From Lineus longissimus (lineage: Eukaryota > Nemertea > Pilidiophora > Heteronemertea > Lineidae): a stretch of 64,000 nucleotides of DNA. This document shows positions 5,115-34,639 of this stretch, one piece after another (positions within the stretch are counted from its first letter, which is position 1; each line of letters begins with the position of its first letter). The position numbers were made by a program, and so were the translations under genes. The stretch spans positions 14,987,501 to 15,051,500 of the forward strand of contig NC_088323.1 in the NCBI RefSeq assembly GCF_910592395.1. The letters are read 5' to 3'. Under the pieces are notes generated by a model. That model worked only from the letters and a program-made list of their open reading frames with translations, made no database searches and was not told the DNA's origin.

Positions 5115-7569
5115 AAGTTACATGTATTTCAAAGTATCCGAATATAAACACAAGAAGCACTACTTAAAATACCAATTAAAATTTTTAAAAGAAAACCACA
5201 CCGCCTGAGGGCTTGAGCACCAATTTTGTGCTGTTGTTTTTCTAAACACACCGCCCGAGGGCTTGAATAAAAACACTCACATATATAATATGATACCCGA
5301 GTTATGAAATACAAATAAACACATGCCTAAAAATATTTTAAGTACATGAACATGGTAGTATACAGGGCACCAAGGTGACATCAACAGTAAGGCCTTGATA
5401 GTTGAACTGCTACATACATGTAGTTTATGAACTCTGTGGGGTTGATTGATGTATAGTTCTACAACTATGCTATCAGCTAAGTCAGGAGAGGAGGCCTGTA
5501 TACTACAAATTGACAGGGTAAAAATTTGATAAAACTACTAATAAATGTGTACATAAAAGTAATACCAAGTATTAATAAAATGCATCAATCGAGTAGCTTG
5601 CATACAAAACCCACTACTTGGTTTAGATATACTGAAGTCTACCACCAAATACATGTAGTATCAGGTAAAAGCGAGTCATACTGCACTACCAGTTACCATT
5701 GCGACCGTAGTTGTACATGTGATCACGGTTCCTGTTTTGCTTGAAACTGACAGATTGATTGGCATACTGGCTATACTGCGATTGGGAACGATTGTTATTG
5801 TCACTGTCACTATTATAGCGGTAATGATTGACAACGACGGCGCCATTTTGTGCAAAAGGGCGCACATTTTAACATCATCAAAATTGCCGTGACGAAAAAA
5901 GAGCATCAGGATATATTTTTTTATCTTTCTGAAATTACAAAAGAATCTTATCAATCACCAATGGAATGACCCTATTGAGAAATTTGATGTAATTTTTGTT
6001 TTTATTCAATAGTTATCGGTCACCTCCTCACATATTGCTGCCAGGGGTGAAAGACTTGGGTAGAGAACGACTCTCTGGTGTGGAGATTGATTACTGCACG
6101 TGACAATAATATTGATGGTGGAAGATGCCGGCTTTGCGATTTTCTCGTCAATAATGTCTAAATATGACTTTATTTCTTAGTTGATTTCGAATTTGGTGCA
6201 TATGAACACTGTACAGCTACATAAAGAATACATTAATTTGGTAGATTCTGTAGATACATGTTGACTTTTTATAAAATTTGCACATAGTCGTAGCGTTTTT
6301 CCGGGTTCTTTGATATGCAAATGTACATTTCCACGTCATGACGTGCTTTCATCTACGCGGTATTTCTGATATCCTTGCATCGACGTATATGTGGCGTACA
6401 TCCGATTGTCTCAGTCAATATACGTCTTGGAACTGGCTATTCGAACCGTCACGGTGCATGGGGCCATTGTTTCCGGTCTTATTCGCACCGTCAGAAACAA
6501 CCAATGAGAGCGCTTCTTACAAATGACCCGGATCACCCGCCCTTTCCAAATCACGCCTAGCCAGGCCCTATTGCATATAATGTTCTGTAGAGGCATGGAT
6601 TATTTATACCTCCATGGTAGAGGGGATGATAGGGTGTGGGTGTGGCGAAGACAGAAACGAACATGCACATGCACCCCCCCCCCCCGTCCACCCTTAGAGG
6701 AGAATGCCAAACGAACTTGGACCACCCACATTGACATGCACCCCCCCCCCCCCCCGATATGCATGCCCTGGCTCCTATGGCTATTACATCTTGTATGATG
6801 CTGCTTCTGACAGGGCCGGGCCTGGCTGGAAGTCAAGGACCCTACCCACACCCGGAGCCAGGAGTAAAGGCACTTCCAACACTCGTCACAAACAAACACC
6901 ACCTCAATCATGAATTAGGCCTACTTTCCTGTTACCAACCATCACCCATGTCACCATGGTGCGATCTATTTATTCACTCCGTATTATTCGCACCATCACG
7001 GTACGGTACCTTTCTCTCACCGTAACGGTGTGATCTATTTTTTACTGTGCAGTAATTCGCCCCGTCGCGGTACGACCAATCACTGCTGAATGTATAATTC
7101 GCACCGTGACAGTACGGCCAATCATAACCACCGTCGTATTCACACCGTCACGGTACGAATAGCCACGGCCATACGTCTATGGTTCATTCGACTATTCATG
7201 ACCATGTTCATAGGCCTTTTCGACACAAGACAAATCAGATCCTTAAAAAATCAAATGTGCACATTCAGAACATGTCGTCAGAAGGCCTATGCCGAATTTG
7301 GACAATGCCATGAGCCACTATTAACCCTTTGTACCAGGAGAAACATAGAGACATATCTTGACGACTTCTTTGATGTCCAGGACGGCGACGCGATGATGTT
7401 TAATATCATGAGACTTGTATAGCGCTAAATCCAACAGGTTTCAGTCGCAAAACGTTCACATTATTACCCCTAGCTGTTGGCCTGTACATTCCTGATTCAA
7501 GCTCATCTCTCTGGGAGTATCACAGGTCCGAGCTGCAGCTGCAACAAAAAAGTACCATTCATAGTTTGC
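5115..7569. other. Intergenic region upstream of VPS50, no confirmed gene
   Basis: No ORF here shows a recognisable domain. The short VPS50 first coding exon (about 15-20 residues) and the promoter should lie here or between 7760 and 8079, but I could not place them with confidence. A CG-containing segment with GGCGCCATTTTG is at ~5837. Long C-runs near 6668 and 6742 flank a short duplicated stretch. Confidence 0.45.
6440..7165. repeat. Dispersed CACCGTNACGGTG palindromes with CCAAT motifs
   Basis: About seven variants of the near-palindrome CACCGTCACGGT(G/A) occur near 6446, 6486, 6990, 7019, 7058, 7100 and 7142. Three are followed within ~15 bp by CCAAT (about 6500, 7075, 7120). They may be remnants of a repeat or a cluster of protein-binding sites upstream of VPS50. 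Function is inferred only from repetition and position. Confidence 0.4.
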
Positions 7570-8160: not shown

Positions 8161-11100
8161 GTGAGTATGGCTGCCCTAAAATGGCGGTCGCACTATTCCG
8201 AACATAACAGACTAAACGTGACTTTCAGTTTTTATATAAAGATTTAAAACTTTTTATGACCAGGAAGAAGAGAATTATAATGCTGCTTCTTCGGAAAGTT
8301 CATCACATTTGCAGATCTATTTTAGTTTGGAATGTAACGAAATTACCAATTATTCCACTCTTGTCTCTCGGTATTTCCTCACAGGCTCAGACCAGTCAGG
8401 AGTTCCCAAACGACCCCCAAGCTGACCAAGAAGCGATAGATAGCATTGAAAAGGATTATTTCAATGGAGATGACTTTGACGCAAGTCGCGCTGAATTGGA
8501 TGTAAGTCTTGTTACCTTGTTTTGCCCTGTCAGAATAACTGGACTTCTGTACGGTAAAAAGCGTGTGTACAAATTCCTTGGGCAGGGCGTAAAAGCTGCT
8601 GTATATGTTGACTATGCGCCACCCATGAGAGGAGTGTGCAATATATCGCCACTCTTTAATGGGAATTAACATCATGACGTAACTAGCTATAAAATGCAGA
8701 AGTGGCAATAGAATGTACAATGTCGGCCCTCATTTCATCAATTTCAGAAACTCCCTGATGTTCTTGAGCTCCAAGCGATTGATGAGGACAGGAGCAAACT
8801 ACGCGGTCAGCTCCGGGCCGTCTCCAAGAAGGTGTCTGAGTTAGTCCTGGAGAACCACCCCGCATATGCTGCGGAGTTGATCCGAGTCATGGAGTTACAG
8901 CAGTCACTCCAGACGGCAAGCGTTGTCTGCGCGAATGGCAGAAGGTGAGTGCTGTACAACCGCAATCAGGGATGTGAAATTTCTGATTTTAGGTGGATTT
9001 CAGAACTTTTTCTCATACTTTATGCTGAATTTGGTAACTGGCAGGAAAGAGCACTTTCTCACCTCTCTGTGAATCTTTGAATTTTTTAAAATTTTGCCAA
9101 AAATAAGCGTTTTAGAGCTTTTTTTGTGGAAGTGAGTGCTGTTCAAAGGACAAGATTTTTACAAGAAAAAGTTTCAGATTTTTTTCTGGAGTTCTTTGCA
9201 TTCTTCAGCATTGTTGTCTGTAGCATTCATGTATTTTAAGTGATTCCTCCTTGTTCAACATTCGTCAAGAAATAACTGTACAGAGCCGAAAATGTCAAAA
9301 TTCAATGTAATACACCCAAAGGTTGTTTGTGCTCAAGAGCCCAAGCGATGTCTGTGCTCCAGAGCCCCAAACGATGTTTGTGCTCCAGAGCCCAAACGAT
9401 ATTTGTGCTCCAGAGCCCAAACGATGTTTGCGCTTCAGAGCCCAAGCGATATTTGTGCTCCAGAGCCCCAAACGATGTTTGCGCTTCAGAGCCCAGGCGA
9501 TGTTTGTGCTCCAGAGCCCCAAATGATGTTTGTGCTTCAGAGCCCAGGCGATGTTCGTGCTCCAGGGCCCCAAACGATGTTTGTGCTCCAAAGCCCCAAA
9601 CGATGTTTGTGCTTCAGAGCCCAAACAATGCGGACAAATTATGAATGGACTTTAGTCATGTACATTTTATAATTCTGAAATTTTACACCATTCGGTTAAT
9701 ACCTCTTATCCGGCTTTGTTTGTCCTGTGTCAAGGTATTTGTCCAATGCGAAAGAGGACTTCACCACAGCCAGCCTGGGCCTCCTTGCCAACTATAGGAA
9801 GAGACAGCAGTTGGTTGGACTTCTCAAATCGCTGAAGACCATCAAAACTCTGGTACAGTAGAACCTCTCTATTAAGGACACCCTCGGGACTGACCAGTGC
9901 TGTCCTTAATAGAGAGGTGACCTGATTAGAGAGGTCAAATTGAATGGAAACAACCAATTTGGGATCAAAACTAGTGTCCTTAATAGAGAGGTTGTCCTTA
10001 ATAAATAATAGAGAGGTTGTCCTTAATAAGGAGGTTGTCCTTAATAGAGAGGTTGTCCGTAATAGAGAGGTGCCCACTATGGGAGGTTTCACTGTATGTT
10101 TAGAAGGCATATTTGTTCAGCTGCTTGACTTGGAAGCGATACAAGTCAAAACAAAAAAATAACTCTATGACATGTCATCAACCCTTTATTGTTTGCCTCA
10201 TCGGAGCACTCTTATTAGTAAACAACCTTGGTAAACAGCCTGGGTTTGTATTTTAAGGTAAATTAGAAATTATTGGATTGTACTTATAATTCCCTCGTTG
10301 TTGATGAACTGAATGTGTTTCTGTTTTCAGCAAAGGACAGACATCCGACTTCGTGAGATGTTGGAAGAGGAGGATTATCCTGGAGCCATCCAGTTGTGTT
10401 TAGAGTGTCAAAAAGCTGCCAGCACATTCAGACACTTCCATTGCATCAGGTAACTATAGAGTGTCAAAAAGCTATAAGCACATTCAGACACTTCCATTGC
10501 ATCAGGTAACTATAGAGTGTCAAAAAGCTGCCAGCACATTCAGACACTTCCACTGCATCAGGTAACTATAGAGTGTCAAAAAGCTGCAAGCACATTCAGA
10601 CACTTCCATTACATCAGGTAAGTATAGAGTGTCAAAAAGCTGCAAGCACATTCAGACACTTCCACTGCATCAGTTAAGTATAGAGTGTCAAAAAGCTGCC
10701 AGCACATTCAGACACTTCCATTGCATCAGGTAACTATAGAGTGTCAAAAAGCTGCCAGCACATTCAGACACTTCCACTGCATCAGGTAAGTATAGAGTGT
10801 CAAAAAGCTGCCAGCACATTCAGACACTTCCATTGCATCAGGTAACTATAGAGTGTCAAAAAGCTGCCAGCACATTCAGACAGTTCCATTGCATCAGGTA
10901 ACTATAGAGTGTCAAAAAGCTGCAAGCACATTCAGACACTTCCATTGCATCAGGTAACTATAGTAATGTTCACCGTGCTAAGAATTTGTTCATATTACTC
11001 CTCTCAGATTTCTGCCTGAAATTCATGAGAACCCTTCCCATCCGGTCGTGCCGACTATTAGGGAAATGGCAGTTGGTTGATGCTTTTGCTGCGAGTGACG

Positions 11101-23100: not shown

Positions 23101-26100
23101 ATTTTCTTTTTCGGCCCAGATATTTCACAGTTATCTCTAAAATTAAAATACACTTGAACATTTCAGGGGTTACAGTATGTTGGTGATCCTGTGTTACTTT
23201 TTTTCAGCGTATTTTTGGCGGACCAATTCCAGTTCCTGCAGCCGCACCTCGAGGGGATGATTCCCCAGAACAAGAAGGCGTTCCTACAACAGTTCTATTC
23301 GCAGACGGTCGGCGTCACGCCCGAACTCCGTCAACCGGTTTACACAGCCGTCGCAGCACGGTCGATTGATTACGATCAGCTAATTCAACTGATGGCGAGC
23401 GTCCGATGGGACATAAAGGACATCATGTCGCAACACAGTACATATGTCGATCAGGTTTTACGAGTGAGTTGATTCACCTGTGGAATCAGTAACAAGCTCT
23501 GCGAGGGTCTTCCACCTCGCAGAGGCAAGGCTAGCCACCTCACCGAGGAAGTCCACCCGTGCCAAATTTATATTAGTTTACACTATAAGTGTTCAGTATT
23601 TTCAAAATTTTAAATTCTCAAATACAGTGGAACCTCCCTTAGCGGACACCTCTCTATTAAGAACAACCTCTCTATTAAGGACACTTGTTTCGGTCCAAAA
23701 TTGGTGGTTTCCCTTCAATTTGACCACTATAATGATGAAACCTCTCTATTAAGGACAGCAGTTCTCAGTCCTGAGGGTGTCCGTAATAGAGAGGTTCCAG
23801 CTTTTATCCATTCTCTCTATTTGTGTCAAGCACTTACTTCGCAAAAGCAGGTTACATTTGTATGTGTGAACTTTCGTTGGGCTGGTGATAATGTTCCCCA
23901 ATTAGTTTTGCTTAATTTTTGTTCCTTATTCCAGGATTTCCACATTTTTGCCATGAAGTTGGACAACTTGTCGAAAAGGGTACCGATGCCCGTCGTTGTT
24001 TCATGCTGTCTCTGGGAGCTGTGTATCACGCTCGCGAATACCACCTTTGTTGAAGGGTAAGTTATCAAGTGGAGAATATTCAGGCCTTTCAGTTATATTG
24101 AGTTCACAGTATGTGGTAACTACGAATAGAAAATCTGATTGAAATAACTGTTACAAGCTTACATAAACAAATGAAATGCCAAAGTGTGTCATTTTACTTT
24201 AGCGCGCCACAGCAATATTGGGCAAACATTTCCAGCTTTATTGTAACTTCACAACTGCAGAGATTAACCCTTTCGCTGTGGAAGTTTCTTTTGACCAGCG
24301 CTGCCATGTGCTGACAGTTGATACCAATAATGAACAGTGGAGCTTACTTTTAGCGAACAGTCAAAACTATTCAAAATTTTTCGCCATCTGTACTATTAGG
24401 ATGAAACTAATCCTCCTCAAGTGCGTTGGGAGAGAAAGTGCTGGTGAATTGATATTTTGGTAGGGTATGACGTGCTATGCCTGTCACCTGACTAATATAA
24501 GACCAAGTGTCATGACATGCTGTGCTTGCATCCACGGCAAAAGTAGAGTTCAGCCCTCTTTAAAAAATAAACTTGCAACACTGCACCAAAAACAAAAAGA
24601 ATCTGGAACCGGAACTTAAACTTAACGTCACAGAAAGCACAGTAAAACATACAGTTTTCTGTTGCACAACTCAAGTTTAAAATAAATGACTTAACTACCG
24701 CTCATGACAACAAAACTTAGAAATAATACAGGAAGCGTTACGAATATAAACAGTCATTTTGCAAATACATTACATAGAATTCATGAAATACACAAGCGCA
24801 AGACAAAAAATACCGAGTCAGACAGCACATTCTTATCAAACTAGCACCTCGAGCTTCGAAAAAATTTAAAGCTCAACTCGCTGCGGAAAATCGTGACATT
24901 TTTGGAGGTGTATTTTTTCTGGAGATTTTAGTGATGCTTAGACAAACGCTGACTTGAAGGCGCAAAACTTTCAACTATAATTCGATCATTACAGGCTTTC
25001 GTTGTTTGTTTTCTTTATTGGTTATTTCCATGAAATCGACACACGCCGCCTGAGAAAATTGGCCTTATTTAGCAGATTCGTGATGGTTGAAACAATACAC
25101 ATATCTCTCAGTATTCTCATATGACAAACTGAGGACACACGTAATTAACATGCAGCGTTTGGGAAAATTTAAACACACACTAATTGCAAACAGATGGATT
25201 GGTGTCACCTGGTGTTAGAAATAGGAAACAGATGCAGTTGGACAAATAGTAAATATAATTGAACAACAGAAACAACGTGATATTTAGTCTATCACCAAGT
25301 GAAATGAGCTAATTTACCGACTTTTTGAAGCGTTTTACTACACCAAGTGGCCCATGCCTCCTCCCCAATGGCTGCATCTCCCAAGTGGCCTATGCCTCCT
25401 CCCCAATGGCTGCATCCCCCCAATGGCTGCATCTCCCAAGTGGCCCATGCCTCCACTCAAATGACTGCATCCCCCCCCCCCCCCAATGGCTGCATCTCCC
25501 AAGTGGCCCATGCCTACACTCAAATGACTGCATCCCCCCAATGGCTGCGTCTCCCAAGTGGCCTATGCCTCCACTCAAATGGCTGCATCTCCCAATGGCT
25601 GCATCTCCCAAGTGGCCCATGCCTCCACTCAAATGGCTGCATCCCCCCAATGGCTGCATCTCCCAAGTGGCCTATGCCTCCACTCAAATGGCTGCATCTC
25701 CCAATGGCTGCATCTCCCAAGTGGCCCATGCCTCCACTCAAATGGCTGCATCCCCCCAATGGCTGCATCTCCCAAGTGGCCCATGCCTCCACTCAAATGG
25801 CTGCATCCCCCCAATGGCTGCGTCTCCCAAGTGGCCTATGCCTCCACTCAAATGGCTGCATCCCCCCAATGGCTGCATCTCCCAAGTGGCCCATGCCTCC
25901 ACTCAAATGACTGAATCCCCCCAATGGCTGCATCTCCCAAGTGGCCCATGCCTCCACTCAAATGGCTGAATCCCCCCAATGGCTGCATCTCCCAAGTGGC
26001 CCATGCCTCCACTCAAATGGCTGAATCTCCCCAATGGCTGCATCTCCCAAGTGGCCCATGCCTCCACTCAAATGGCTGAATCCCCCCAATGGCTGCATCT

Positions 26101-29100
26101 CCCAAGTGGCCCATGCCTCCACTCAAATGGCTGAATCTCCCCAATGGCTGCATCTCCCAAGTGGCCCATGCCTCCACTCAAATGGCTGAATCTCCCCAAT
26201 GGCTGCATCTCCCAAGTGGCCCATGCCTCCACTCAAATGACTGAATCCCCCCAATGGCTGCATCTCCCAAGTGGCCCATGCCTCCACTCAAATGGCTGCA
26301 TCTCCCCAGTGGCTGCATCTCCCAAGTGGCCCATGCCTCCACTCAAATGGCTGCATCTCCCCAATGGCTGCATCTCCCAAGTGGCCCATGCCTCCACTCA
26401 AATGGCTGCATCCCCCCAATGGCTGCGTCTCCCAAGTGGCCTATGCCTCCACTCAAATGGCTGCATCTCCCCAATGGCTGCATCTCCCAAGTGGCCCATG
26501 CCTCCACTCAAATGGCTGCATCTCCCCAATGGCTGCATCTCCCAAGTGGCCGATGCCTCCACTCAAATGGCTGCATCTCCCCAGTAGCTGCATCTCCCAA
26601 GTGGCCCATGCCTCCTCCCCAATGGCTGAATCTCCTTAATGGCTGCATCTCCCAAGGTCATGGTGTGAAATTTCTCAGTACACTTTTACATACAGAGTTT
26701 CTCTTACAGTAAATTGAAACCCTTTCTTCTAGAGGCATGACATTTTCACAGATGAATAAATGATACATAAGTGAAATGATTGGCAAAAAAAATCATCGTG
26801 TCAACGTAAATGAGTGGTCTTGTATTAAAATACATTGTGTTACATGTAGTTCAAGCATTGTACTAGGTCCCAGGTAGTGTACTGGGGACTGAAAAAACGT
26901 GACGTAGCCGAAAATCACCAACTGAGTGCTGACAAGATTTGTCCAACTTGTTACTTCACCTAGTGACTCTGCCTCCTCACTTCTCCAATGCCAGTGGCTC
27001 CACCGCGCAATTATTAGGACAATACTCAAAACATGCAGCATGTTACCATCAAAAACTAACCAACAACTTAATCCAGGATTTGGCTGACAGAGCTAGCATC
27101 AGGACAAATGTCCCCCCCCCTCAAGATTGCGTTTCCTGATATTTGGGGCCATCTTAAGAATGCTTGAGTTCTCCGAACTTCCTTCAACCTTACTGTCCTG
27201 GTTTTAAAGGCAGCGATAGAATTTCTAATGCTGTTGCGTCATTCGGATCCAAATCCAGGCGACATGGTGGTTTGCCGAGGTTTGCATTCACATTTCTTGG
27301 TGGCTCTTGGTTCAATTCCTCCTTGTAAAGTCCACCAACAAAGGCCTTCATATGTGCTGCCACCTTGTGAGATTTAGCTGCATTAATGTTAACCCCTTGT
27401 AGCAGGTTGACCTTGGGCATCCAGAATATTGGGATGGATCCACGTGAGAGATAGTACTCCAGCTGAGAGTACAGTATGTAGGCCATCTCGACCAGGGGGC
27501 GCTCATGGTCAAGGAAGTCTTTCACATTGTGCATAAAGACAGTTTTCAGAAGATAACTTGTGAGGAATTTGTCGACAAAATGTAACATGCCGTCATCTTT
27601 CACGACAACTTGACAAACGACCGGATCCCTGAGACATTTTGCCAAGATGTAGGCATTCTTTACCCTGGGTTGTAAGTCCTTGATGTGCGCGACCTCAAGC
27701 TGAGAAAATGTGACACGGTAGAGTTTCTCACGTTCAGCTTCTTTGAAAGTCTTCCCGAATGAGCTGTCCTTGTGTGGAGGTCTTACAACCAACTGGTAGC
27801 CCTGTTTCTTGAGGTCATCATATCCCATCATCCAGGTTTTCTGAATGGCATCATCCGGCCAGTCATTTACTGGAAGCACGGGTACAAGGTCTATCGACAC
27901 CACCAGACTGCGCTGTTCGTCCTCCTTCCATCTCAATTGGATGACCGTGCTTGCACTGCCACCACCAGCAACAGCTGAAGGGGTTGAAACGATCATGTCA
28001 TCACTTGAATCAATGTAAGACCAAAGAAGAGAATGCACCAACTTACTGCTATTTAATTCATGATTATTGATGTCGCACCTTCTGTAACCATGGCAAACAT
28101 CTGTAATGTCAGTTATGTGAATATCACTTGTGAGCTTGACTGTGAAGTCAAATTCATCAGGGAATCCCACCTTGGTTAATTCGGCTGAACCTCCAGTGAG
28201 TGTCACAATCCATTGGTTGTGTTGAAGGATCGCCCTAATTTTGGTGTCAATGGTTACGTTCAGCTCATTCAGTTTATCCTGATTTAGGCTCTGGACCGAA
28301 CCCAAACCTGGGAATTTGATCAAACTGGAAGTGGAAATTCTTTTCCTCTCTTCTACTTCATGCGGTGAAAGGGCCATTCTGAAGATGTCCCAGTTAATGT
28401 CTTCACTAAAAGAAAGATTGTGGTGATCCCTCAAATCCTCTGCATGTTGGTTTAATCCAGTAATCAAGAGATACTTGTAAATATCAATAGATCCACTTTG
28501 AGATAAACATTGTGCAAGTTCGACATTGCTGAGGAAAGACAATGTTGCACCCAATGAGTGGAGCATTCGGACACATTCAAAATGACTATGTGAGATAGCT
28601 GTGGCTAAAGGAGACTGTCCGTTATGACCTACAAAGTCTAAACCTGGTGTTTTGTTCATTTTCTCTAGAAAAATTACAACCTCTTTCTGTCCATATCTCA
28701 CTGCCAGCAGTAACCATCTTTCAATGGTTTTCTTAAGGTCGGCTTCATCAGTGATATTTTTCAAAAAGTATTCAATGACATTAATCTGTCCGTGTATCAC
28801 ACAGTTGTCCCGAGAAGAAAATCCATCATTATCCTTACTCGCGATGTCTGCGCCATGTTCAAGTAGAATCTGGACAATTTCTGTTTGACCTACTGTTGCC
28901 GCTTGGTTTAACGGAGATTTCCCCTTGTTATTATCTTTACTCTCTATGTCAGCTTTCTGTTGGTGCAATGTCTCCATCGAGTTTTCACAATCTATAGTTG
29001 TGTGGAGTGGGCTGTGGCTGCTCAGAACACTTGCCTCGGTCATTTCACCTCTTTCTAAAAGAAGTTTCACAACACTCCCATGTCCATTCTCTGATGCAAT

Positions 29101-32100
29101 CCAAAGGGGAGAACTCCCTTCATCTGATTTACTCTCTATCAGTGCTCCTCTGTCTAGGAGGAGTCTCACAACACTCTCATGTCCATTATATGATGCAATC
29201 CAAAGGGGAGAAGTCCCTTTATCTGATTTACTCTCTATTAGTGCTCCTCTGTCTAGAAGGAGTTTCACAACACTCTCATGTCCATTCTGTGATGCAATCC
29301 AAAGGGGAGAAGTCCCTTTATCTGATTTACTCTCTATTAGTGCTCCTCTGTCTAGGAGGAGTTTCACAACACTCTCATGTCCATTACATGATGCAGTCCA
29401 AAGGGGAGAACGCCCATTATCTGATTTACTCTCTATTAGTGCTCCTCTGTCTAGGAGGAGTTTCACAACACTCTCATGTCCATTCTGTGATGCAATCCAA
29501 AGGGGAGAACTCACTTTATCTGATTTACTCTCTATTAGTGCTCCTCTGTCTAGGAGTAGTCTCACAACACTCTCATGTCCATTATATGATGCAGTCCAAA
29601 GGGGCGAACGCCCCTTATCTGATTTACTCTCTATTAATGCTCCTCTGTCTAGGAGGAGTTTCACAACACTCTCATGTCCATTCTGTGATGCAATCCAAAG
29701 GGGAGAACTCCCTTTATCTGATTTACTCTCTATTAGTGCTCCTCTGTCTAGGAGGAGTCTCACAACACTCTCATGTCCATTATATGATGCAGCCCAAAGG
29801 GAAGAAAGCCCATTAACTGATTTACTCTCTATTTGTGCTCCTCTGTCTAGGAGGAGTTTCACTACACTCTCATGTCCATTCCATGATGCAGTCCAAAGGG
29901 GAGATTGCCCATAACCAAATTTAACCTCAATCGATAGACCACATATATAGAGAATTTCTACGAAAATGTGATAACCCCTCCTTGATGCAGTATAAAGGAT
30001 CAAGTACCGATTCAGGTACAGGCGCAGGACCAGGACCAGGACCAAGCCCGCGACAATGAACCTGATAATGAACAAGTCAGAGGATCCATTATCATCCATT
30101 GCATCAGTCACTGTTTTCTCCTTCACATCTAAGCCTTTTTATCAAACAGGAATTAATTATCAGTGTCAGATAAGCCTTCTTTGGCTGGCGAATTGTGTAA
30201 TTCGGTGCCGGGTAAATGAAATATATATATAATCCTTCTGTGGTTAAAGTGGGCTTTACCAGGTCTTCCTTCACAATCTTGAACTTGAGGCCAGCTCAGC
30301 TCTGTAAATCAAATAATTACAAAACCTAACACATTTGTTTATTATTTTTTCAGGTATAGATTAGAGATTTAATCCATGCTTGCTTTTTTAAAAGATCAAA
30401 CCGTCTTTTTCATCATTTTTTCGGTTGCTCGTTCAACAACATTCATTGCAGGTCACTGCTACAAATATATATATCTCGATTGCAAAAACCCTTCATCAAA
30501 TGGTATCATGGCCCAAGCCTTAGGAGATTATCAAATTTAGATAGGAAAAGGCATTGGTTAAAAAAATTAAAAAGAAGAAAATTTTTCATGCAGCAGCAGG
30601 CTGTTGTGCAGTGCTATACAGATGTCTTCTTCTGCATTCTGATTGTTTTAGATGCACACCAAACAGACATTGGCAACAGATTCGGCTGTCCAAGGGAGGT
30701 CTCCCTCCGAGCCCAAGAGCTTTGTGATCAGGGTGGTGTCCTTTGGTCAGTATTTTGCTCTATTCAGCTGCCCTTTGTATGTACTGTGTCGATGCATTAA
30801 GCTGGTTGAGGGGTCCCTGTGCTAAAGCCTATTTTAGGCCCATGTTTGACAGACCGGGCTCAACCTAATTGCGTCGACACAGTAAATGTGTGTTGAAAAG
30901 AGTTTGCAAAAATGCAAAAACTAGTTACAAGCGTCATTACAAAGAATGAGGGTCGTGGATTTTAGGGTTCACATTATGGGGTTAAAGCAAGAACATAGCA
31001 CTTGACTCTTACCTTTGTGTTCTTTAATGCATCTAGGATTCGTTCTTCTTAAGTTTATGCTGGCATCTATGTGAATTCGTGGGGGTAAATCTTGTTGACA
31101 ATCATTTGCAGCCTCTATCAAGGTCAGATATGTGTTCCTTTGACTTCGATTGACTCGCGTATTCTGCTTTTATTGATGAGTTATAACTGTTTGAAGAATA
31201 TAAAACGTGGTGGTTAGCATGATGGTTTGTTTAAGGATAGGTATTTCTGAGGTCGAGGTTTGTTCTTCTTCTGTTTCATAAGTAAACAATTTTTCGGAAG
31301 ACCGGGTATATTTTGCAAGCCTCTCGCTGAACAAGCATGATTTTTGCCATGTTTGGAGAGCCACTTGCCGAACAGCACTGAAAATCAACCCAGTTTGGCA
31401 AGCCCCGCTTTAAATATCAATGAGTTCGGCTCTCCATTTGGGCAAAAAAGGACTTTAGGACTTTCGAACTTTCGGGGTCTTCCTACGTCTAAACATTTTG
31501 CAGATTTACGAGATGAGTTTGTAAATAAAATTCAAAAATATTGTGGCAGAGTTCGTATCACTGGATTGAGGTTAGTCCTTATGAATAAGGAGTACTTGTC
31601 AATCCCACAGCTGTCCACCAAAAATGTAGCGGTAAAAGGGCTTATAATATTTGTCACCGTATAAACTTCGCAACTCTGAACTCGAACCCAAAGACTAAAC
31701 CAACTAAGATATTTACATTATTTATTATCCACGTCCCTCTAACCTCATATCTACAACCGACACTAAAATATTACAAAAATAAGGCGCACAATAAAATATC
31801 AACAAGAGATCATATAAAAGAATCTTACCATGCTGTAAGGTCAAGGGTGAAGTCAATTAGAAATGCTCTGGCGCTTTTCAAGAGAAATATCTTGTTTAGC
31901 TACAGAGGGTAAAGGTTGGTTTTCTGGATCTGCCAGGACTTACTAAAAACATATGAACATCATCATTTATACCTAATTGCACACACCCCTAATGGGTAAA
32001 TAGCCTAGCCCAAATATCAGGCTCTGAGCCAACTAGCACTCAGTAATTAAGGAAATAACCAATCAGTACACAGCAGCATCAATACAAGATTATCAGACAG

Positions 32101-34639
32101 GGCCAAGGGCAGGGGCCTAGTAACCAGCTGCTAATCAGGAAGATCATGAAAGGGGTCAAACAGCTTAAAAGATAGAGATTATAAAACAATGGAAAGGGGC
32201 AATTAAGAAGGAAGGTGTTGAAACTTATAATGGTTAACGATCCTGGGTGTCTGGGTTCACCAGGGCTAGAGAGAAACACAGAAATAATAATTACAGATAT
32301 AGTAAGCAATTCCTAATATTGTCACATTGATAAATTACCTGTATTTATGAAATTCCAAATTAATTGGACCTGTAATAAGACGGATATGATGAAGTCGTCA
32401 TCCAAGTCGTAGGCACCACCAAAACTTGGAATACGACGTCATAATTTCCTCCTTATGCACAGGTCCGATCTGGAACTTTAAAATCCTTGTACAGTGGAAC
32501 CTCCCTTAGTGGACACCTCTCTATTAAGGACAACCTCTCTATTAAAGACACTAGTTTTGGTCCCAAGTGGGTTCTTTACCATTCAATTTAACCTCTCTAA
32601 TCAGGACACCTCTCAATGGACACATTCTGGACTGACAAGATAGTGCTGTCCTTAATAGAGTGGTGTCCTGATTAGAGAGGTCAAATTGAATTGAAACAGC
32701 CAATTCGGGGCCAAAACTAGTGTCCTTAATAGAGAGGTTGTCTTTAATTTAGAGGTGTCTGCTAAGGGGGGTTCCTTTGTACAGAGTCAAGAATCTACAC
32801 AGTACACATGCCATAGTTGAAAGGACAGATGGACATCTGATGCCACAACAACTTGACCGAAAAGAGGCTGCGTTCAGACGTTCGCGATGAGGGCATATTG
32901 AAATGGCCTTATTATGTAAATGTTGAAACGTGTCAAATGAAACAGCCAAAATAAACAAACCATGCAAATGCCCCACTCATTTAAATTTTCCAATTTCTTC
33001 AGATAGGCGAGCGCCAAAACATTTACAACAGAGGGGCGAACATTTGATGCTGTTAGACTTGGCGCTAGGGCGGATACCTGAAAGTTTGCAACAGATGGAT
33101 GGGCGGTGATGCTGCGATGATTGTCCCAATGCAAAAATGGTGTCCTCTTTGAAAACCCATTCATTTGAATCTTTCCTATTTACGACAGTAGATTGGGGCG
33201 TATCCCTGAATGTAAATACAGCCCATTCATTCTTTTAAAACCCATTCATTTTAATTTTTCCAATCTCTTCAGAAATTCGAGCGCCCATAAATTTCCATCA
33301 GATGAGCAGGCGGGGATGCTGTGATGCTGGGGTGGATACCTGAATATGAATACAGTGATAATTGTATCACTGCAAAAACGGTATCCTCTCTATAAAAAAC
33401 CCATTCATTCGAATCTTTCCAATTTCTTCAGATATGCTAGCGCCAAAAAGTGTACAACAGAAGGTAGGGCGTTGATGTTGTTAGACTTCCAGCAGTTTTT
33501 GATGAAGCTTGAGAAGTTGACAGAACTGCGCCCAATCCCAGAACGCGAATATGTTGAAACCTACATCAAGGCCTACTACCTTCCCGAGGACCAGTTAGAG
33601 ACCTGGGTCAAAGACCACAAGGTAATTATAGCTTAGTTCAAACGCTTTAATCAATGGAAAAATTCATTCTGAGCGCAACTGCTCTAGAGAAATGATGATT
33701 TGGTGCAGAATATTAGCCCGTATGCTAATTGCATATGTAAAACACGTCACATCATGACGACGCTATACTTCTGGAGATTTATGCAACGTCATTTTTCGTG
33801 ACATTTCTTCAATGACGCGAAACCCCTGTTCAAAAAGGTGTCGTAAAATATCCTATGCTGTTGTATCGGGTCTTTTTCTCGCGCGGCTGTGGCCGGAATG
33901 AACTTTTGAATGTATCAAGTAGCTGGGACTTGATGTAACAATCAATTTGAGGAAGGTTTGATATAATTTCGAGAGCAATTGTGAAAATGAGAGCGATTTT
34001 CAAATTTCTGAACATCTTGAACTAATCTAAAGTCTTTTCTCCCTGTTGACTCTTTCTTGTTATAAAACTGAAAGATAGACATATAGATGCAAGTTTCAAT
34101 CTTGGAATAATGGATGACCCATGCTAGACTCTATGGTATTTCTCACAAATATTAGAATAACTCCTTATAAAAAACAAACTTGGAATCATGGATGATCCAT
34201 AGTAGACTCTTACAACTCTATTACTCACAAATATAAGAAAAACTATAAAAAAACAAACTTTGAAGTTTTGGCCCAGTCGCCCAAAAGGAGCTTATGAAAG
34301 CGACTATAGGGATATATAGTGGAACCTCCCTTAGCGGACCCCTCTCTATTAAGGACACCATTTCTAGTAAGGACACTAGTTTTAGTCAATAAAATTAGTT
34401 GTTTCCATTCAATTTCACCCCTCTAATCAGGACACCTCTCTATTCAGGACAGCACTTGTCAGTTCCGAGGGGTGTCCTTAATAGAGAGGTTTTACTGTAC
34501 ATGTAAAGTCATTTCCTCTTTTCTCTGTTTCCAGGAATACACCACAAAGCAGATCATATCGCTCGTCAATTGTCTACCGCACATCAACAAGAGAGCGCGA
34601 CAACGCATCATCGGGGTCATTGAGGAAACACGTCGATAA
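8080..34639 (+). CDS. VPS50: VPS50 / syndetin (CCDC132), EARP complex subunit; 20 coding exons, 5' end missing
   Basis: Syndetin is the subunit that distinguishes EARP (VPS50-51-52-53) from GARP; it tethers vesicles for endosomal recycling to the plasma membrane. I joined 20 exons: 8080-8160, 8385-8501, 8748-8944, 9735-9852, 10331-10449, 11665-11806, 12408-12548, 13301-13427, 13784-13964, 15208-15397, 16019-16210, 17085-17301, 17810-17901, 18674-18700, 19237-19359, 22774-22871, 23208-23463, 23935-24056, 33432-33621, 34535-34639. Every junction has GT/AG and matching phase. The total is 2835 nt, 944 residues plus stop; human syndetin is about 964. The family match runs end to end: N-terminal VPS54_N-like coiled-coil region, acidic linker at residues ~510-570, and C-terminal Syndetin_C domain from ~600. 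Recognisable stretches are [41 protein letters not shown] and [17 protein letters not shown]. The first exon carrying the ATG was not located. Confidence 0.95.
8385..8501 (+). CDS. VPS50: VPS50 exon, residues 28-66
   Basis: Acceptor CTCACAG, donor GTAAGT, phase 0 on both sides. It contains [18 protein letters not shown], a strongly conserved N-terminal syndetin segment. Confidence 0.9.
8748..8944 (+). CDS. VPS50: VPS50 exon, residues 67-132
   Basis: Acceptor ATTTCAG, donor GTGAGT; ends in phase 2 with the Arg codon of NGRR split by the intron. Predicted coiled coil with [16 protein letters not shown]. Confidence 0.95.
9305..9627. repeat. Minisatellite, ~26-bp unit
   Basis: About 12 tandem copies of GTTTGTGCTCCAGAGCCCAA with CGAT spacers lie in the intron before the 9735 exon. 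Several frames are open on both strands because the unit lacks stops; these are not genes. Confidence 0.9.
9735..9852 (+). CDS. VPS50: VPS50 exon, residues 132-171
   Basis: Encodes [20 protein letters not shown] through SLKTIKTL, highly conserved in syndetin. The acceptor is GTCAAG, weak in pyrimidines. The donor is GTACAG; its T is the first base of the TA next to a MITE inserted at 9856. Confidence 0.95.
9854..10096. mobile_element. TA-flanked MITE inserted at a VPS50 splice donor
   Basis: The element has CAGT...ACTG ends with GAACCTC(T/C)CT-type inverted termini. It is flanked by TA at 9854-9855 and 10095-10096, the pattern of Tc1/mariner-related MITEs. Internally it repeats TCCTTAATAGAGAGGT in both orientations. 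It starts at intron position +4 of the 9852 donor. Confidence 0.85.
10331..10449 (+). CDS. VPS50: VPS50 exon, residues 172-211
   Basis: Starts [20 protein letters not shown] and ends FRHFHCIS with the Ser codon split by the intron. Acceptor TTTTCAG, donor GTAACT. The last 48 bases plus the donor are the first unit of a 56-bp tandem array. Reading past this donor meets TAA at once, so the first donor is the one that maintains the protein. Confidence 0.95.
10402..10961 (+). repeat. 56-bp tandem array made of exon 3' end plus splice donor
   Basis: Ten copies start at 10402, 10458, 10514, 10570, 10626, 10682, 10738, 10794, 10850 and 10906. Each holds the last 48 exon bases (AGAGTGTCAAAAAGCTG...CATCAG) followed by GTAACTAT or GTAAGTAT. 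Copy 5 has TTAAGT and has lost its GT. The rest form a ladder of candidate 5' splice sites. Confidence 0.95.
11109..11198. repeat. 10-bp microsatellite (CATGTCACCA)n
   Basis: About nine uninterrupted copies of CATGTCACCA lie within the intron between the 10331 and 11665 exons. No coding role. Confidence 0.9.
11665..11806 (+). CDS. VPS50: VPS50 exon, residues 211-258
   Basis: Acceptor CTTGCAG, donor GTAAGT. Encodes [20 protein letters not shown] and YRLLGKTQ; ends in phase 0. Confidence 0.95.
12408..12548 (+). CDS. VPS50: VPS50 exon, residues 259-305
   Basis: Acceptor GTTGCAG, donor GTGAGG, phase 0 on both sides. Encodes [17 protein letters not shown] and [10 protein letters not shown]. Confidence 0.95.
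13074..13255. mobile_element. TA-type MITE copy in VPS50 intron
   Basis: Same family as the 9854 element. It begins TACAATAGAACCTGTCTATT and ends GGAGGTTCTACTGTA, with internal GTCCTTAATAGAAAGG and CTAGTGTCC motifs. Confidence 0.85.
13301..13427 (+). CDS. VPS50: VPS50 exon, residues 306-348
   Basis: Acceptor TATGCAG, weak donor GTTCGT, ends in phase 1. Encodes [19 protein letters not shown] and WHEKHD. Confidence 0.93.
13784..13964 (+). CDS. VPS50: VPS50 exon, residues 348-408
   Basis: Acceptor TTCCACAG, donor GTAAGT, ends in phase 2. Encodes [20 protein letters not shown] and [12 protein letters not shown]. Confidence 0.95.
14060..14290. repeat. Direct repeat of ~105 bp
   Basis: The block GCACTTTACATT(G/A)GTAAAA...AAACAATGGTAATAAAG occurs twice in a row in the VPS50 intron. 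A short (ATAAC)n run follows near 14337-14360. Confidence 0.75.
14582..14662. repeat. Inverted repeat / hairpin
   Basis: AGGGTGGAGCTAAAAT pairs with ATTTTAGCTCCACCC, flanked by AACCG/CGGTT and GTCTCA/TGAGAC. A stem of over 25 bp with a short loop, probably a small foldback element. Confidence 0.75.
15208..15397 (+). CDS. VPS50: VPS50 exon, residues 408-471
   Basis: Acceptor TCTTTAG, donor GTATTG. Encodes [20 protein letters not shown] and [17 protein letters not shown], among the best conserved syndetin segments. Confidence 0.95.
15690..15835 (-). mobile_element. tRNA-derived SINE-like fragment
   Basis: The minus strand reads GGAGTAGCTTGGGTCTCTAA (A-box-like) and then CCCTGGTTCAACCCC (B-box-like) about 30 bp later. 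This pol III promoter spacing suggests a tRNA-derived SINE head. No intact cloverleaf was found. Confidence 0.5.
16019..16210 (+). CDS. VPS50: VPS50 exon, residues 472-535
   Basis: Acceptor ATTTTCAG, donor GTAGGT, phase 0 on both sides. Encodes the variable linker and then the conserved [20 protein letters not shown]. Confidence 0.93.
16228..16571. mobile_element. MITE copy with internal triplication
   Basis: TA-type MITE of the 9854 family in which a ~111-bp block (ACAACCTCTCTAGTAAGGAC ... AATCAGGACATCTCTCTATT) is repeated three times. It ends GAGAGGTTCGACTGTA. Confidence 0.8.
17085..17301 (+). CDS. VPS50: VPS50 exon, residues 536-608
   Basis: Acceptor ATTTCAG, donor GTTAGT, ends in phase 1. 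Carries the acidic run [15 protein letters not shown] and then [15 protein letters not shown], matching the linker and the start of the C-terminal domain in syndetin. Confidence 0.93.
17302..17460. repeat. T/G-rich simple repeat (GTTTGTT)n
   Basis: Starts directly at the donor of the preceding exon. The intron begins with GTTAGTTTGCTG repeats that run for about 160 bp. Confidence 0.85.
17705..17766. mobile_element. MITE end fragment
   Basis: Half of the TA-type MITE: CCGTAATAGAAGGGGTGTCC to AGGGAGGTTCCACTGTA. Only one terminus is seen. Confidence 0.75.
17810..17901 (+). CDS. VPS50: VPS50 exon, residues 608-638
   Basis: Acceptor TTTTCAG, donor GTAAGT. Encodes [17 protein letters not shown] and LFDYYLYA, the start of Syndetin_C. 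Confidence 0.96.
18202..18600. repeat. 35-bp minisatellite carrying TGACGTCA
   Basis: About 11 copies of a 35-bp unit (CTCTGTTCATGATG then TGACGTCATGAAATAGGCCCG). Seven copies hold the exact palindromic CRE octamer TGACGTCA; the others have TGATGTCA. It lies in the intron just before a 27-nt microexon. Confidence 0.92.
18674..18700 (+). CDS. VPS50: VPS50 27-nt microexon, residues 639-647
   Basis: Encodes VYSFFAIDA, aligning with IYTFFGRND in the human protein. Acceptor CTTCAG and donor GTAAGT are both good and phase 0, so skipping it would keep the frame and delete nine residues. Confidence 0.9.
19237..19359 (+). CDS. VPS50: VPS50 exon, residues 648-688
   Basis: Acceptor AATTCAG, donor GTAAGA, phase 0. 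Encodes [16 protein letters not shown], conserved, then a variable proline-rich end. Confidence 0.94.
19378..19648 (+). repeat. Tandem tRNA-like units (~67 bp x 4)
   Basis: Four head-to-tail copies start near 19381, 19451, 19517 and 19585. Each has an A-box-like AGCC(G/T)AGTGGTTAAC and a B-box-like GGGTTCGATCGTGGGG. They resemble tRNA-Ser/Leu halves with pol III promoter spacing but lack a matching acceptor stem, so they are probably amplified SINE heads, not functional tRNAs. Confidence 0.75.
19660..21230. other. VPS50 intron, no gene seen
   Basis: Unique AT-rich intron sequence. A short motif GGAGGAATACTCCCTGGAGAA near 19907 also occurs at ~13652, so it is a dispersed repeat. Short ORFs here show no recognisable domain. 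Confidence 0.6.
21236..22090. repeat. ~77-bp tandem array
   Basis: About 11 copies of a unit combining AATAGGTTGACTTTTGATCA, ACTCTACTATATCCCTTGAA and ATTTTATCAACTCAGCTATA. Variants differ by single bases. Located in the intron between the 19237 and 22774 exons. Confidence 0.92.
22088..22130 (-). mobile_element. Possible LINE 3'-tail remnant
   Basis: The minus strand reads ...TTTATTG...ACTTTGAATTTGAAT, like the TTTGAA tail of the LINE at 1312. Too short to be sure. Confidence 0.3.
22260..22310. repeat. (ATC)n microsatellite
   Basis: Runs of ATC/CAT trinucleotides with two interruptions. Confidence 0.85.
22547..22719. mobile_element. TA-type MITE copy, diverged
   Basis: TACAGTAGCACCTCGCTGTA start, internal GATTAGAGAGGTCAAATT and CTAGTGTCCTTTATAG, end GTGTCCGCTTGTA. 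Same family as the 9854 element. Confidence 0.8.
22774..22871 (+). CDS. VPS50: VPS50 exon, residues 689-721
   Basis: Acceptor GTTTCAG, donor GTGAGT, ends in phase 2. Encodes [16 protein letters not shown] and [11 protein letters not shown]. Confidence 0.94.
23208..23463 (+). CDS. VPS50: VPS50 exon, residues 721-806
   Basis: Largest exon. Acceptor TTTTCAG, donor GTGAGT. Encodes [28 protein letters not shown] and [17 protein letters not shown], all syndetin signatures. Confidence 0.97.
23623..23798. mobile_element. TA-type MITE copy
   Basis: Starts TACAGTGGAACCTCCCTTAG, contains CTCTCTATTAAGGACA motifs, and ends TCCGTAATAGAGAGGTTCCA. Intronic. Confidence 0.82.
23935..24056 (+). CDS. VPS50: VPS50 exon, residues 807-847
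   Basis: Acceptor TTCCAG, donor GTAAGT, ends in phase 2. Encodes [16 protein letters not shown] and [16 protein letters not shown]. Confidence 0.95.
24057..25324. other. Start of the 9.4-kb VPS50 intron, no gene seen
   Basis: AT-rich intron sequence with no ORF carrying a recognisable domain and no clear repeat family. Confidence 0.6.
25325..26660. repeat. 55-bp minisatellite array
   Basis: About 24 copies of a 55-bp unit (CCAAGTGGCCCATGCCTCCA, CTCAAATGGCTGCATC, C-run, AATGGCTGCATCTC). Because 55 is not a multiple of three, every plus-strand frame cycles through the same three peptides and stays open for over 100 codons; these ORFs are artefacts of the repeat. Confidence 0.95.
26661..27189. 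other. Intron sequence 3' of the nested gene
   Basis: No gene seen. It lies just downstream of the stop codon of the minus-strand nucleotidyltransferase gene and probably includes its 3' UTR. Confidence 0.5.
27190..30099 (-). CDS. Membrane-anchored ankyrin-repeat / Mab21-cGAS-like nucleotidyltransferase protein
   Basis: A single-exon gene of 969 residues inside a VPS50 intron, opposite strand. The start is the first in-frame ATG (G at -3 and at +4); the frame stays open a little further upstream, so a spliced 5' exon is possible. Residues 9-29 ([20 protein letters not shown] region) form one hydrophobic segment. Residues ~60-355 are nine near-identical 33-residue ankyrin repeats ([19 protein letters not shown]); a few diverged repeats follow to ~450. 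After a helical linker, residues ~590-940 match the Mab21/cGAS nucleotidyltransferase fold: GGS at 636-638, then DEFDF with E649 and D651, and SIDLVPVL with D737. Those are the positions of the metal-binding triad in cGAS and cGAS-like receptors. No cGAS-type zinc ribbon is visible. An immune cyclic-dinucleotide synthase is an inference; a catalytically silent Mab21 protein is the alternative. Confidence 0.88.
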   Translation of the reverse strand: MDDNGSSDLFIIRFIVAGLVLVLVLRLYLNRYLILYTASRRGYHIFVEILYICGLSIEVKFGYGQSPLWTASWNGHESVVKLLLDRGAQIESKSVNGLSSLWAASYNGHESVVRLLLDRGALIESKSDKGSSPLWIASQNGHESVVKLLLDRGALIESKSDKGRSPLWTASYNGHESVVRLLLDRGALIESKSDKVSSPLWIASQNGHESVVKLLLDRGALIESKSDNGRSPLWTASCNGHESVVKLLLDRGALIESKSDKGTSPLWIASQNGHESVVKLLLDRGALIESKSDKGTSPLWIASYNGHESVVRLLLDRGALIESKSDEGSSPLWIASENGHGSVVKLLLERGEMTEASVLSSHSPLHTTIDCENSMETLHQQKADIESKDNNKGKSPLNQAATVGQTEIVQILLEHGADIASKDNDGFSSRDNCVIHGQINVIEYFLKNITDEADLKKTIERWLLLAVRYGQKEVVIFLEKMNKTPGLDFVGHNGQSPLATAISHSHFECVRMLHSLGATLSFLSNVELAQCLSQSGSIDIYKYLLITGLNQHAEDLRDHHNLSFSEDINWDIFRMALSPHEVEERKRISTSSLIKFPGLGSVQSLNQDKLNELNVTIDTKIRAILQHNQWIVTLTGGSAELTKVGFPDEFDFTVKLTSDIHITDITDVCHGYRRCDINNHELNSSKLVHSLLWSYIDSSDDMIVSTPSAVAGGGSASTVIQLRWKEDEQRSLVVSIDLVPVLPVNDWPDDAIQKTWMMGYDDLKKQGYQLVVRPPHKDSSFGKTFKEAEREKLYRVTFSQLEVAHIKDLQPRVKNAYILAKCLRDPVVCQVVVKDDGMLHFVDKFLTSYLLKTVFMHNVKDFLDHERPLVEMAYILYSQLEYYLSRGSIPIFWMPKVNLLQGVNINAAKSHKVAAHMKAFVGGLYKEELNQEPPRNVNANLGKPPCRLDLDPNDATALEILSLPLKPGQ
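29010..29920 (-). repeat. 99-bp tandem repeat coding ankyrin motifs
   Basis: Nine 99-bp units in the nested gene, each one ankyrin repeat, nearly identical in DNA. Two variants largely alternate (QNGHESVVK and YNGHESVVR), suggesting a 198-bp higher-order unit. Antisense frames are also open over this block but are shadows. Confidence 0.92.
30127..30781. other. Intron sequence 5' of the nested gene
   Basis: Probably the promoter and leader side of the nested minus-strand gene. A TTAG acceptor-like site lies just before the open frame (near 30132 on the minus strand). No other gene seen. Confidence 0.4.
30782..30884. repeat. Small MITE-like inverted-repeat element (103 bp)
   Basis: The left end TACTGTGTCGATGCATTAA matches the inverted right end TTGCGTCGACACAGTA over ~16 bp. 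Short, with no coding capacity. Confidence 0.65.
30885..32489. other. VPS50 intron, no gene seen
   Basis: Contains a segment (31340-31440) with TTTGGCAAGCCCCG and GGCTCTCCA motifs that recur in a related form at 44280-44420. No domain-bearing ORF. Confidence 0.55.
32490..32781. mobile_element. TA-type MITE, long copy with both ends
   Basis: Begins TACAGTGGAACCTCCCTTAG and ends CTAAGGGGGGTTCCTTTGTA. The two halves are inverted copies of each other (CTCTCTATTAAGGACA versus TGTCCTTAATAGAG), a large foldback form of the family. Confidence 0.85.
32965..33420 (+). repeat. Decayed tandem copies of VPS50 exon 19 acceptor and exon start
   Basis: TTCCAATTTCTTCAG plus an exon-like start (GCGAGCGCCAAAA...) occurs at ~32988, and TTCCAATCTCTTCAG plus GAGCGCCCAT at ~33258. 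A partial copy lies at ~33170. The true acceptor is at 33431. Flanks such as AACCCATTCATT and GTGTCCTCT also repeat, so the unit is about 150-260 bp and includes intron and exon. Confidence 0.8.
33432..33621 (+). CDS. VPS50: VPS50 exon, residues 847-910
   Basis: Acceptor TTCTTCAG, donor GTAATT. Encodes [20 protein letters not shown] and [19 protein letters not shown]. Follows the 9.4-kb intron. Confidence 0.97.
34315..34499. mobile_element. TA-type MITE copy in last VPS50 intron
   Basis: TATAGTGGAACCTCCCTTAG start, AATAGAGAGGTTTTACTGTA end; the middle carries CTAATCAGGACACCTCTC. Confidence 0.85.
34535..34639 (+). CDS. VPS50: VPS50 terminal exon, residues 911-944 and stop
   Basis: Acceptor TTTCCAG. 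Encodes [19 protein letters not shown], ends ...ETRR and TAA at 34637-34639, matching the syndetin C-terminus. Confidence 0.96.
   Translation, partial: EYTTKQIISLVNCLPHINKRARQRIIGVIEETRR

Follow-up and report, generated by a model that had tools for sequence, protein, structure and literature searches.

The window analysed here is a stretch of 64,000 nucleotides of contig C16 of the nemertean Lineus longissimus (14987501-15051500; positions without a contig label are counted within it) and carries, at 27190..30099 on the minus strand, a gene that joins ankyrin repeats to a Mab-21/cGAS-like enzyme, i.e., an ankyrin-fused cGAS-like receptor (cGLR). A sequence-only reading had picked out this open reading frame and likened its product to cGAS; we recover the same frame and add its strand, which had been left out. 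The coding sequence, 969 amino acids in a single open frame, runs from an ATG at 30099 to a stop at 27190-27192; the frame is open from 30138, 30099 is its first ATG, and a 100%-identical protein of 969 amino acids is present in the protein database. Eight acidic or small residues are followed by a hydrophobic stretch, the ankyrin repeats and, from approximately residue 578, the enzyme. The gene was also said to lie inside VPS50, and it does: one VPS50 exon ends at 24057 and the next starts at 33433, both on the plus strand and both located with a human VPS50 query, and the ankyrin-cGLR gene sits antisense in the intron between them (24058..33432). Because its closest relatives in the genome are found ~70 kb off on both sides, this nesting looks incidental. 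The description of the gene as intronless holds as far as the single frame of 969 codons goes; an upstream exon may nevertheless exist for this copy, since two public protein models, P0003 and P0005, start beyond the open frames of their loci (L021 and L019, respectively), which points to upstream exons in some members. Just past the stop, at 27071-27203, other frames match the C-terminal tail of P0002, the public model of the related locus L016; thus, this copy ends ~45 residues earlier than L016.

The enzyme region (residues 578-969; 27193..28368, minus strand) matches Mab-21 (PF03281, 2e-8) and Mab-21_C (PF20266, 8.7e-7), both past the Pfam cut-off. A family profile, A3, was built from 13 enzyme regions, with each Mab-21 domain found in 12 of the 13 members. 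Against the PDB, A3 matches cGLR1 (8gjw, 1.6e-15) as well as 4jlx (3.1e-12), 4k8v (1.8e-11) and 7ftn (1.2e-8), which we take to be pig, mouse and human cGAS, respectively. These matches span both lobes and align the GS, ExD, D, RxSFS and SYxLKT elements, and positions 33-330 of the 381 in the profile align to 8gjw, indicating homology over the nucleotidyltransferase core and the helical bundle. The kinship with cGAS and cGLRs is therefore borne out, with the catalytic residues of cGLR1 (8gjw, 8gjy) and cGAS aligned to those of the Lineus enzyme; the matched chains of known structure have 350-520 residues and, unlike the Lineus protein, no ankyrin repeats.

The triad noticed earlier, GGS, E-x-D and a later D, is confirmed, all on the minus strand: G636 G637 S638 (28186..28194) form the activation-loop motif, which reads T-G-G-S and has GG at the cGAS-equivalent positions; E649-F650-D651 (28147..28155) supply the first two metal-binding acids; and D737 (27889..27891), 85 residues past the ExD pair, is the third. 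Further downstream, R795-V-T-F-S799 (27703..27717, minus strand) aligns to the WRLSFS stretch of cGAS, and S848-Y849, within the helical Mab-21_C domain (27376..27579, minus strand), to its SY. In the cGLR survey by Li et al. 2023 (PMC9980059), the final selection of cGLRs used a G[S/G] loop and the pattern [E/D]h[E/D]-X50-90-[E/D]. The present protein carries this motif as GG, EFD, 85 residues and D737, and departs from the stricter first-round form, h[QT]GS, at the Ser position (Gly637). Judging from these conserved residues, the enzyme is probably catalytically competent. A pairing of K821 with cGAS K414 finds no support in the A3 profile alignment and is not claimed.

The ankyrin repeats, likewise part of the earlier description, occupy approximately residues 28-555 (28435..30018, minus strand), with the first and last repeats degenerate. 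They match Ank_2 at 6e-82; a home-made profile of 33 residues recognises 11 of them, and a count by eye that includes degenerate ones reaches ~15. A part of the array (29048..29904, minus strand) is built from a 99-bp unit, present in 8.7 copies (91% matches) that keep phase with both the reading frame and the 33-residue repeat, so this part was amplified recently.

The gene has many relatives in the genome. Searched in six frames with this protein, the genome shows at least 98 matching stretches, and 47 of 459 candidates were scored. Thirty of the 31 regions fetched contain an enzyme match; with the window copy, this makes at least 31 enzyme loci on 13 contigs, with clusters on C16, C17, C12 and C8. 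The remaining region, L042 (C5:23602703-23612702), holds ankyrin arrays related to those of the family (33 and 9 units scored), and no enzyme was detected within the fetched stretch. Repeats and enzyme share an open frame at 30 of the 31 loci, the exception being L015 (C7), which has an in-frame stop; across the 30 loci with same-frame arrays, the home-made profile counts between 3 and 67 repeats, the arrays of L035 and L039 running to the edge of the fetched stretch. The activation-loop and acidic residues (G, G/S, E, D, D) are conserved at 31/31 Lineus loci and in 6/6 aligned outside sequences, and the Arg counterpart at all 31 loci; S848, Y849 and K852 are kept at 30 (gap in L041) and the last Ser of SFS at 27, where L034 and L038 have Pro, L040 has Ala and L041 has a gap. 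The position of G637 is Gly at seven loci, which make up the C16/C7/C6 clade (support 1.0), and Ser at the other 24. At L041 (C8:20318126-20328125), the enzyme is recovered in four partial matches, and one stretch of the profile is covered by more than one of them, which sets this locus apart from the others. A search for Mab-21 gives 26 matches in the genome, this copy included; these comprise five more places on C17 (285028, 396669, 600376, 625901 and 911577) and, on C9, what looks like the Mab21 orthologue, at 154.8 bits. Since the same enzyme recurs at 30 more loci, 29 of them with same-frame ankyrin repeats, and in coral and mussel proteins, chance similarity is excluded. When this copy is compared with L018, L021 and L019, one member each of three other subfamilies, the ratio of nonsynonymous to synonymous substitution rates (dN/dS) is 0.16-0.24 (at dS of 1.3-1.9, near saturation), which indicates lasting constraint; on the evidence of these ratios, the family is maintained.

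The architecture had been put forward as a candidate for an undescribed immune module, and its being undescribed is not supported: ankyrin-cGLR fusions are already known. According to PMC9980059, 87% of cGLRs lack any additional domain, ankyrin or TPR modules occur in some of the others, and in Stylophora there are fusions of cGLRs with ankyrin repeats and death domains; PMC8195603 describes another fusion, a Mab-21-like domain in TRADD-N proteins. Our protein searches found ankyrin plus Mab-21 proteins in Stylophora pistillata, Desmophyllum pertusum and Mytilus edulis, and the coral proteins P0010 and P0012 and the mussel protein P0024 combine the two domains as the Lineus gene does. Like the Lineus protein, these relatives couple an ankyrin array to a cGLR enzyme, at a local identity of 21-27% to the Lineus enzyme. 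They differ in that the Lineus sequences form one clade (29/29 placed, support 0.715, in a tree that omits L034 and L041 and has only eight outside sequences) and that a few Lineus members have a hydrophobic N-terminus. What is new here is the presence of at least 31 ankyrin-cGLR loci in one genome with the catalytic residues kept at 31/31, together with STING-like exons at three places and a hydrophobic N-terminus in 4/5 copies of the C16 cluster.

Pieces of the STING ligand-binding domain (STING_LBD) lie at C9:12268712 and at two places on C11. When two of the C9 pieces are joined by hand, they reach 49.1 bits (5.5e-13) and cover profile positions 1-101 of 182, and one C11 piece passes the Pfam cut-off alone (27.4 vs 27); a C11 piece reads FGNGLAWSYFFGYL and resembles human STING. 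Two of these loci, L009 and L011 (C11, 2.02-2.04 Mb), hold STING-like exons on opposite strands at a distance of ~12 kb; the frames beside these exons closely resemble each other, and the two loci are perhaps duplicated STING-like genes. Going by these partial exon matches, a STING gene is probably present in Lineus, and there may be more than one. Our literature search found no publication joining STING, Nemertea and cGAS.

Taken together, the gene is a real and, by prediction, probably active ankyrin-cGLR from a nemertean branch that is both large and variable, the new element being a possible subgroup held at a membrane. The interpretation that we prefer, and hold to be somewhat better than an even bet, is that of a competent enzyme controlled by its ankyrin stack, signalling to STING-like proteins and possibly held at a membrane. 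In general terms, its action can be rationalized into three elements. (i) The ankyrin stack would control the enzyme by binding a protein, some other ligand that is not a nucleic acid, or an adaptor. (ii) The enzyme would make a nucleotide second messenger, to be read by the STING-like proteins of the worm. (iii) In this copy and three neighbours, the hydrophobic N-terminus may act as a membrane anchor that leaves the repeats and the enzyme in the cytosol. Sensing, a cyclic dinucleotide as output and an immune role, which the sequence-only reading also proposed, we infer. An analogy, and only that, is offered by RNase L, which is among the structural matches listed for the ankyrin part. In RNase L, an ankyrin stack is the sensor half of an immune protein that receives a nucleotide messenger and cuts RNA; the enzyme half of the Lineus protein would, by contrast, make the messenger rather than receive one.

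Several observations weigh against this interpretation. The enzyme region alone has no significant PDB match (best E 0.2), and the family profile is needed to find one. In a 610-residue model made with 14 aligned sequences, blocks of the catalytic lobe have predicted local distance difference test (pLDDT) values of 29-65, the ankyrin repeats and the helical lobe (mostly 61-91) being modelled with fair confidence, and the full-length single-sequence model is good for the ankyrin repeats only. The best 50 rows each from Foldseek and VIA-align all fall over the ankyrin part, with no cGAS entry among them, and are uninformative on the enzyme. The position of cGAS Ser213 is Gly in this copy (G637), STING was matched in pieces only, and the enzyme has an isoelectric point (pI) above 8.5 at three of the 31 loci (L015, L020 and L022). 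Lastly, dN/dS is 0.83-1.16 in the six pairs that this copy forms with its clade, so that it may be under relaxed constraint or diversifying, the ratios fitting both equally.

The strongest competitor concerns the membrane. The best 19-residue Kyte-Doolittle mean, 2.69, falls on residues 9-27 (30019..30075, minus strand), a segment long enough to span a bilayer and predicted as a possible membrane helix; a low-confidence single-sequence model has a helix at residues 6-36. Acidic residues precede the segment and an Arg comes after it, which by the positive-inside rule would favour a cytosolic placement of repeats and enzyme. Four of the five copies in the C16 cluster have a hydrophobic N-terminus, namely this copy, L012, L013 and L016 (maxima of 3.18, 2.72 and 3.20 for the last three), and the fifth, L014, reaches 0.22. 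The four share the start TDAMDD or TDAMDA, and over ~900 bases upstream this copy is 94.9% identical to L016 and 93.7% to L012. At L012 (C16:15087509-15094508), the low-complexity hydrophobic N-terminus spans ~160 residues. Outside the C16 cluster, none of the N-termini surveyed in enzyme-bearing frames exceeds 1.61, in a survey that read L028, L029, L032 and L036 from an internal Met and L035 from the stretch edge, and that excluded L039 and the hydropathy of the C7 copy; the latter has a stretch matching the N-terminus of this copy (query 1-110, 63%). The membrane anchor proposed earlier is plausible for this copy and its nearest neighbours, and the segment, seen in 4/5 copies of one cluster, is not a trait of the family. 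A literature search for membrane-held cGLRs gave none by title among the matches listed, which is weak evidence of absence.

The alternative is an active but soluble protein: the hydrophobic N-terminus would be an accident of low complexity, translated from an upstream ATG or spliced away, and the product a cytosolic ankyrin-cGLR. The hydrophobic parts of the four copies differ in sequence and, by eye, look repetitive; L014 does without one inside the same cluster; and the public model of L016 begins only within the hydrophobic stretch, at residue 64 of the open frame. Against this stands the retention of hydrophobicity in 4/4 copies with the conserved start even as the sequence changes. We place the soluble protein a little short of an even chance, and the putative anchor may hold this copy and its three neighbours in a membrane.

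A second alternative is that this copy is a young duplicate heading for loss. The ratios of 0.83-1.16 to its nearest relatives would fit such a fate, as would its C-terminal tail, shorter than that of L016, and the in-frame stops at other loci, e.g., on C7, C13 and C17. Such stops in matched stretches also occur on C12 and C5; disruption in relatives, which the sequence-only reading had named among the things that would count against its view, is seen in several copies, most being intact. In this copy, by contrast, the 969-codon frame is intact and the catalytic residues are kept, and duplication followed by diversification can yield the same ratio. Pairs of the clade without this copy give 0.59-0.80 (15 pairs), and eight recent pairs from other clades 0.45-1.02. 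Impending loss seems to us an improbable explanation.

The diversification of the repeats bears on a more ambitious form of the preferred interpretation, in which the family would be a germline repertoire of the NLR kind, its tandemly amplified and diversified ankyrin arrays meeting many protein ligands, several STINGs reading the messengers and one cluster, with the present gene in it, working at a membrane. Repeat positions 2, 3, 5, 13, 14, 26 and 33, which we take to be the randomised, ligand-facing positions of designed ankyrin repeat proteins (DARPins), were compared with the rest of the unit at 20 of the 31 loci, those with fewer than 5 units or fewer than 10 usable pairs being dropped. 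Pooled dN/dS is 2.45 at these seven positions (bootstrap over 20 loci, 2.02-3.10) vs 0.81 elsewhere, and their dN exceeds the whole-unit dS at 20/20 loci used; the seven positions hold only ~3.8 synonymous sites per unit. Random sets of seven positions equal the dN in 8 of 20000 draws and the ratio in 301 of 20000. For pairs at least 85% identical, the ratios are 2.39 vs 1.15, and this is unexceptional, since 2847/20000 random sets equal it. Moreover, the two ankyrin frames of L042, which have no detected enzyme, give dN/dS values of 0.151/0.038 and 0.459/0.146 at the seven positions and 0.066/0.073 and 0.138/0.179 elsewhere in the unit; because these two frames follow the pattern of the enzyme-bearing loci, diversification is perhaps common to all young ankyrin arrays of Lineus. 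The diversified repeat surfaces are thus a hint only. NLR-type repertoires resemble the Lineus family in having many clustered copies and variable repeat arrays; on the side of the differences, the Lineus diversification is not specific to enzyme-bearing arrays, and the Pfam result for this protein contains no NACHT or NB-ARC domain, no search for either having been made across the family. We consider the repertoire unlikely as matters stand.

A cGAS-like sensor of nucleic acid, with ankyrin repeats serving localisation only, is suggested by the closest solved relatives, cGLR1 and cGAS, and by the basic enzymes noted above, some members of the family perhaps binding nucleic acid as their pI may indicate. 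The cGAS zinc thumb, a His and three Cys used for DNA binding, has no counterpart in the A3 alignments to cGAS, where its first cysteine pair falls on non-cysteine positions. The enzyme region of this copy is acidic (pI 6.36, net charge -4), in contrast to basic cGLR1 and cGAS, and net charge is negative at 24 of the 31 loci. PMC9980059 gives pI >8.5 for nucleic-acid sensing cGLRs and proposes that acidic, auto-active ones answer other ligands. With a pI of 6.4, nucleic-acid sensing thus appears less likely here than binding of a ligand or adaptor by the ankyrin stack, and we rate it as quite unlikely. Equally doubtful is a pseudo-enzyme or non-immune scaffold, such as Mab21-like developmental proteins may be: PMC9980059 describes as not understood whether Mab21L1-related proteins make nucleotide signals, MB21D2 matches profile A3 (3.6e-7) and Gly replaces Ser at the G637 position at 7/31 loci, and yet the loop glycine and three acids are kept at 31/31 loci and the published cGLR criteria (PMC9980059) allow G[S/G].

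Other features of the window concern VPS50 and repeats. At 10401-10963, a 56-bp unit in ~10 copies corresponds to the last part of a VPS50 exon (10331-10447), and the copies still encode, exactly or nearly, a 15-residue exon-end peptide; the end of this exon seems to have turned into a minisatellite. A 55-bp minisatellite of 23.5 copies (25355-26656) lies in the same VPS50 intron as the ankyrin-cGLR gene, directly downstream of it. Repeats of 17-18 bp like CCTCTCTAATAAGGACA are scattered over 13123-34858 at several places and in both orientations, and a 1202-codon open frame at 1509-5117 on the minus strand resembles, by eye, the endonuclease/reverse transcriptase of a long interspersed element (LINE).

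The sections of PMC9980059 consulted give no mechanism of activation through attached repeats. Should the family prove to be an NLR-like repertoire, it would amount to a strategy akin to that of NLRs in which the output is a diffusible messenger. Because the genome of Lineus holds at least 31 loci with uniform catalytic residues and arrays of 3 to 67 units, two questions become testable in it: whether ankyrin stacks let cGAS-like enzymes sense proteins rather than nucleic acid, and whether a cGLR can act at a membrane.

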